Shown: positions 958 to 1,300 of the stretch, piece after piece
Position numbering within the stretch: the stretch's first letter is position 1
How the letters are laid out: every line of letters starts with the position of its first letter
Assembly (NCBI GenBank): GCA_015711825.1
Contig: JACVJD010000013.1
Location: 1 to 43,418 of the forward strand
Reading direction: 5' to 3'
DNA from: Candidatus Solincola daggyaiensis
GTDB lineage: Bacteria; Actinomycetota; Geothermincolia; Geothermincolales; RBG-13-55-18
Length of the DNA stretch: 43,418 nucleotides
Position numbers and translations under genes: made by a program
Notes under the pieces: generated by a model
What the model was told of the DNA's origin: nothing
Databases searched by the model: none
The model's input: only the letters and a program-made list of their open reading frames with translations

Positions 958-1117
958 CCTTACCTCCTCGCTAGTTCCTATCCGTGTTCATACATCATAG
1001 CAGACATGATGGCTTCGGCTGCAGGCTGGAAGCAGTCCCGGGAGCGCACGGTCAAGGCTTAATATGGCAATATATGGTTTGTTTACGATCTCCCCGCATT
1101 TTTTACCCCCCACCCTA

Positions 1118-1145
1118 TTGACACCTACGTCGATGGTGATATTAT
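1118..1145 (+). promoter_or_regulatory. Strong sigma70-type promoter (TTGACA-N16-TATTAT)
   Basis: TTGACA at 1118-1123 is a perfect -35 box and TATTAT at 1140-1145 a near-perfect -10 box, 16 bp apart. Transcription would start near 1152, exactly where an RNA with strong secondary structure begins. It is one of the best-matching promoters in the window. Confidence 0.75.
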
Positions 1146-1151
1146 TTAACC

Positions 1152-1300
1152 GTTCCGGCTGGACTCGGGGGAAAACCTGAATTGGAGCGCTTTTCAGGCT
1201 TGCGCGTCCGGAACGTAGGTAGGAACCCAGGATGCCGAGTAGAAAACGTCGCGCCGCGTGCTCGACGGCCCCAAAGGTATCTTGGGTTTCTACTTTTTTT
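1152..1300 (+). ncRNA. Candidate structured RNA or 5' leader of unknown class
   Basis: Seen: an arm CGTTCCGG at 1151-1158 pairs perfectly with CCGGAACG at 1208-1215. Inside it lies a smaller hairpin CCTGAA/TTCAGG. This is followed by a long second hairpin (1219-1293) and seven Ts. The unit starts at the predicted start site of the promoter at 1118 and ends at the T run, about 149 nt in all. There is no convincing reading frame in it. It does not match the sequence hallmarks I know for TPP, SAM, cobalamin, FMN, glycine, c-di-GMP, ydaO, 6S or tmRNA. It is either a free small RNA or an attenuator leader for the flavoprotein gene that starts 184 nt later. Confidence 0.55.
1219..1300 (+). terminator. 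Rho-independent terminator with a 15-bp stem
   Basis: GTAGGAACCCAGGAT (1219-1233) pairs along its whole length with ATCTTGGGTTTCTAC (1279-1293), using two G-U wobbles. TTTTTTT follows at once (1294-1300). The 45-nt loop holds its own small stem CGTCG/CGACG (1247-1251 with 1263-1267). Confidence 0.65.

Follow-up and report, generated by a model that had tools for sequence, protein, structure and literature searches.

What does the stretch between a dapA gene and a flavoprotein gene encode in Candidatus Solincola daggyaiensis, and does it act on the gene that follows it? The window analysed here is the whole stretch of 43,418 nucleotides of contig JACVJD010000013.1. The initial annotation described this part of it as a compact unit of unknown class with a promoter, a folded RNA and a terminator, which might sense the substrate of the flavoprotein or be a free small RNA.

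Promoter and fold in the window

The coordinates of all features are collected in Table 1. The promoter matches 11 of the 12 consensus bases and carries an extended TG at positions 1137-1138. As shuffled sequence also yields about one such site per 6 kb, the lone match in the window carries little weight. The site was confirmed by comparison, with a -35/-10 pair present in 15/15 oriented relatives where shuffles predict 0.28; the hexamers and the 16-nt spacer are conserved in nearly all relatives of the window's own family. Transcription from this promoter would start near position 1152 and end near 1294-1300, giving an RNA of about 145-150 nt. The RNA would measure only about 80-90 nt in the shortest relatives, in which the predicted start falls at the foot of the hairpin.

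Table 1. Features of the RNA locus, with positions in the window and the conservation observed for each
Feature	Position (strand)	Description	Conservation
Upstream stretch	1103-1117 (+)	TTACCCCC-ACCCTA, directly 5' of the -35 box	near identical in family members
Promoter	1118-1145 (+)	-35 TTGACA 1118-1123, 16-nt spacer, -10 TATTAT 1140-1145	kept in 15/15 relatives (0.28 expected)
5' domain	1151-1215 (+)	stem 1151-1158/1208-1215 at the predicted start site	own family only, without covariation
Core hairpin, outer stem, 5' arm	1218-1236 (+)		covariation
Internal loop, 5' strand	1237-1246 (+)	GAGUAGAAAA	phylum consensus KAGUAGANAA
Inner stem and variable terminal loop	1247-1267 (+)	stem 1247-1250/1264-1267	covariation alignments
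Internal loop, 3' strand	1268-1275 (+)	GCCCCAAA	phylum consensus GYNCCAAM
Core hairpin, outer stem, 3' arm	1276-1294 (+)		covariation
Seven Ts 3' of the hairpin	1294-1300 (+)	possible intrinsic terminator in this species	not conserved

The predicted fold of positions 1152-1300 has an energy of -66.3 kcal/mol (z = -3.7), and none of 200 shuffled sequences folded as well. The 8-bp closing stem of the initial annotation is present, formed by CGTTCCGG (1151-1158) paired with CCGGAACG (1208-1215). It is almost invariant within the family and therefore offers no covariation, and it is absent from deeper relatives outside the family. The core of the RNA is the 3' hairpin (1218-1294), in which about 19 bp, G-U pairs included, close a two-stranded internal loop (consensus YKAGUAGANAAC / GGYNCCAAMGG) and an inner hairpin. 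As for the proposed terminator, its seven Ts are real, but the stem is larger than the 15 bp assigned to it and the U-run is not conserved, being missing in several close relatives (e.g. L006, L011, L013 and L014). The absence of a reading frame agrees with the alignment, which contains indels of 1-2 nt and strong base-pair covariation.

A second copy of the 3' arm of the hairpin (CCAAAAGCGTCTTGGGTTTCTAC, 83% identical) was seen at 1346-1374, 75 nt downstream. Among the family loci only L007 has another match to this arm, on the opposite strand and inside the hairpin itself, so the copy in the window has the appearance of a partial duplication that arose locally in this genome.

Covariation and distribution in Actinomycetota

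A DNA search of the window's own taxonomic family recovered the RNA in 14/15 genomes, with one strong match each at 80-93% identity; the single genome without it is 62% complete. Beyond the family, covariance models of the core hairpin were applied. The model built from the own family (R1) found it in 52/396 genomes of the phylum, and two models built from wider alignments found it in 59/396 (R2) and in 86/396 sampled genomes, together with 133/296 genomes of one class (R3); these counts are lower bounds owing to strict filters, and they are not strictly comparable, as genome samples and E-value limits differ. Up to two copies occur per genome. The holders include Actinomadura, Nonomuraea, Streptosporangium, Microbispora, Ornithinimicrobium, Serinicoccus, Pedococcus, Acidimicrobiales and Nitriliruptoraceae. 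Also among them is a genus, very common and probably Streptomyces, whose genomes measure 6-11 Mb and have the gene order RNA-ppm1-fxsA-rbpA. The covariance-model search gave no clear match in those other families of the window's class that lie outside its order, nor, with R3 in the 396 genomes, in many other lineages of Actinomycetota.

The pairing of the hairpin was assessed in two alignments. With 28 sequences, 89.8% of the pair cells are standard pairs and 17/23 pairs show changes on both sides. With 90 sequences the values are 91.4% and 20/21, in an alignment that was fitted to the structure and is therefore biased in its favour. Slid controls, with the partner moved by 1-3 columns, were paired in 33-51%. 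A cleaner test of the pairing was provided by a pattern scan of GTDB genomes that specified the two loop strands and the adjoining GG and no base of the 5' arm. In Actinomycetota the arms flanking the matches beat at least 98% of shuffled arms in 57/63 cases; in other phyla this was so in 1/17, and matches outside Actinomycetota were taken as chance, their arms being no better than shuffles in the remaining 16/17. A lack of compensatory changes in relatives had been named at the outset as grounds for discarding the unit; the covariation is instead very strong in both alignments, and the hairpin structure is real.

The loop behaves differently from the stem. In 48 rows that the covariance model, as opposed to the pattern, had recovered, AGUAGA, AAC, CCAA and the G of the 3' strand are 96-100% identical, whereas most positions of the outer stem are about 40-70% identical. 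Selection would thus appear to act on the long 3' hairpin as a structure whose stem letters drift with compensation and whose loop (KAGUAGANAAC / GGYNCCAAM) hardly changes. This is hard to reconcile with selection for stem strength alone, whether in a mere terminator or in some other hairpin with a role at the DNA level. The near perfect 19-bp stem and the seven Ts of the window would suit such a role, but the invariant loop letters set against drifting stem letters, the near fixed promoter spacing (see below) and the variable U-run make it highly improbable, and the last of these led us to reject a simple terminator.

Some local variants were also observed. Candidate subtypes in some lineages are a changed loop (YGAGGANAAC-like, in L115-L119) and an inner hairpin with CAATAACC...GCTACC, which between them cover L115, L116, L118, L119 and L163. 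Streptomyces-like and related loci (L294-L297, L301 and L302) share a conserved GAGCCAGG stretch 5' of the hairpin, which suggests a longer 5' domain in them. A copy of the type found next to polA, with 14/14 stem pairs formed, lies on the viral contig IMGVR_UViG_3300044808_000042 (L317, 9230-9275); it is surrounded by phage-like genes, with no polA nearby, and is possibly phage-borne.

Gene contexts and mode of action

Three recurring contexts were recognized. In the lineage of the window (context A) dapA lies divergently upstream and the RNA is followed by the flavoprotein gene, which in several relatives is replaced by a GGDEF gene on the other strand, the RNA being retained. In many lineages (context B) a small DUF4193-like gene and/or lnt and ppm1 come after the RNA, with rbpA close by, further on; nearly all of these loci have their next gene on the strand of the RNA, for the most part no more than about 250 nt away. 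In Streptosporangiales, and for second copies elsewhere (context C), a divergent polA and a thioesterase gene lie upstream, and what follows the RNA is either a gene for a response regulator or an ABC gene, in many cases convergent, or else same-strand transporter genes. The genes flanking the RNA in these contexts comprise dapA, flavoprotein, amidohydrolase-like, DUF4193-like, lnt, ppm1, thyX, polA and thioesterase genes. The dapA, flavoprotein and GGDEF assignments were confirmed by profiles; DUF4193, lnt, ppm1, fxsA, rbpA, thyX, polA and thioesterase are names given by reading the sequences, without a profile search. No downstream gene is common to the whole phylum, and the neighbour differs between clades.

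The RNA has its own -35/-10 pair not only in context A but also in 17/40 loci of context B and 22/30 of context C, for which shuffles predict 0.18 and 0.05. The distance from the -10 box to the core is near constant within clades, with 88-93 nt in the main family of context A, 45-49 nt in most loci of context B and 20-26 nt in most of context C, where the predicted start coincides with the foot of the hairpin. In 16/43 lnt/ppm1-type loci (0.9 by shuffling) the next gene has a leaderless promoter of its own (TANNNT, 6-7 nt, GTG) placed 3' of the RNA, so that in those 16 loci the RNA need not belong to the lnt message. Hexamers resembling a -10 box also precede the gene in DUF4193-type loci, as judged by eye. 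Neither a promoter of the RNA nor one of ppm1 was recognized in Streptomyces-like loci.

These contexts bear directly on the possibility of a cis-acting leader, whose internal loop would sense a ligand or a protein and control the operon behind it, which would be lnt/ppm1/DUF4193 in most clades and that of the flavoprotein in the window. The same-strand neighbour at short distance in context B is what a leader would require, roughly 20 conserved loop positions would be apt for an aptamer, and a promoter between the RNA and lnt was found in no more than 16/43 loci. Nevertheless, we consider a leader unlikely: members of the own family without the flavoprotein gene retain the RNA, the next gene in context C is often convergent, those 16 loci provide lnt with a leaderless promoter 3' of the RNA, and the phylum shares no downstream gene. 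The outer stem is, moreover, long and near perfect, and no conserved alternative pairing was noticed on inspection. A riboswitch would be expected in the 5' leaders of one consistent gene class, whereas the gene downstream of the present RNA varies by clade and can be convergent. A flavoprotein riboswitch was rejected, as relatives that lack the gene still carry the RNA; the suggestion that the RNA senses the substrate of the flavoprotein likewise finds no support, given the copies kept beside an opposite-strand GGDEF gene and the unrelated neighbours across the phylum.

An action in trans could in principle proceed by base pairing between mRNAs and a single-stranded part of the RNA, for which GGGGAAGG would be an example. 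Distantly related lineages (L065, L067, L131, L149 and others) share this sequence in the terminal loop of their polA-type copies, where it is possibly a second functional site. An antisense-type RNA is nonetheless improbable, because the GGGGAAGG loop is absent from the copy in the window and from most lnt-type copies, and the part common to all copies is the two-stranded internal loop. That both strands of this loop are conserved suits a folded docking site better than an antisense seed.

A fixed two-stranded loop, a drifting stem, an own promoter and shifting neighbours together form the pattern of a free-standing RNA that docks a protein. The reading we lean towards, with modest confidence, is that of a structured RNA with a transcript of its own, acting in trans and probably bound by a protein. 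Its family extends across Actinomycetota and is not in Rfam 15, and the RNA would act away from its neighbour genes. The compact unit of promoter and folded RNA is upheld, and with it the option of a free small RNA, by the own promoter, the covarying hairpin and the varied neighbours. We would give about an even chance to a more specific picture. In it, the RNA is housekeeping-like, binds a protein, acts in trans and has no known relative; Streptomyces-like and many other lineages of Actinomycetota carry it as one or two paralogues (lnt/rbpA-type and polA-type), and it escaped notice because the stem letters drift and no more than two short loop strands are fixed.

Retention in one or two copies, with a fixed loop, from relatives of Candidatus Solincola to Streptosporangiales and, presumably, Streptomyces suggests that the RNA is probably important physiologically, and its holders include the main antibiotic-producing bacteria. 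The family is one more for RNA annotation, and in tractable strains it offers a specific loop for mutation and a bait for the pull-down of partners.

Comparison with known RNAs

A search against Rfam 15 (4227 families) gave no match at the gathering threshold for the window or for 15 distant loci, in keeping with the unknown class and the lack of a known riboswitch core noted initially. Three representatives searched in E-value mode gave no matches, or only chance ones below threshold; for the window, with E values of up to 10 allowed, a sub-threshold 25-nt CRISPR repeat was the sole match. The family is new in being absent from Rfam 15 and from the literature searched; its general kind, the free-standing structured small RNA, is already known. 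For the loci of the family, that of Streptomyces (SCO1423 = ppm1, SCO1424, polA and rbpA) included, no mention of an RNA was found in the article texts searched, and individual transcripts of the family may already be listed in sRNA tables.

Several likenesses were considered and set aside. GAGUAGRGAAC presumably resembles a stretch of E. coli 5S rRNA, with AGUA recalling the loop-E motif; the opposite strand departs from the usual GAA. Genes for response regulators that look like pdtaR adjoin some polA-type copies and raised the idea of an ANTAR-type target RNA, which was rejected because the core is one long hairpin and not two hexaloop hairpins. With intrinsic terminators the RNA shares, in this species, a G+C-containing stem followed by Ts; it differs from them in its conserved internal loop and in the absence of a conserved U-run, the U-tract lying directly 3' of the stem in the window and not in several close relatives.

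6S RNA (150-190 nt) is free-standing and single-copy, has a long stem with an internal loop and binds RNA polymerase in trans. The present RNA resembles it in having a long stem broken by an internal loop, and 6S RNA can serve as its functional model. Identity with 6S RNA was ruled out: positions 960-1500 gave no RF00013 match with E values of up to 10 allowed, and the true 6S RNA of this genome lies on another contig (G000:C34:15427-15614). The loop letters of the present RNA are, furthermore, near invariant, whereas the primary sequence of 6S RNA is described as not conserved (PMC11077062). That source names other RNAs, among them scr3559, scr0792 and CoRP.

The livJ motif of Streptomyces, located upstream of LIVBP genes and with a ribosome-binding site in its stem (PMC11109978), is likewise a structured actinobacterial RNA near genes for branched-chain amino acid transport. 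It is set apart by its description, as polA-type copies of the present RNA in many cases face the distal end of such a cluster, or else other genes. Ms1 (scr3559) is a widespread, structured actinobacterial sRNA that binds the RNA polymerase core (PMC9130861; PMC11077062), and the present RNA is also structured, widespread and actinobacterial. By its description Ms1 is nevertheless distinct, being longer and syntenic with HAD hydrolase and oxidoreductase genes (PMC9130861), an arrangement not encountered in the recurring contexts of the present RNA, which adjoins dapA, DUF4193/lnt/ppm1 or polA. By analogy with 6S RNA and Ms1, both partners of RNA polymerase, the internal loop would most likely be the docking site of a protein, with RNA polymerase itself as one candidate.
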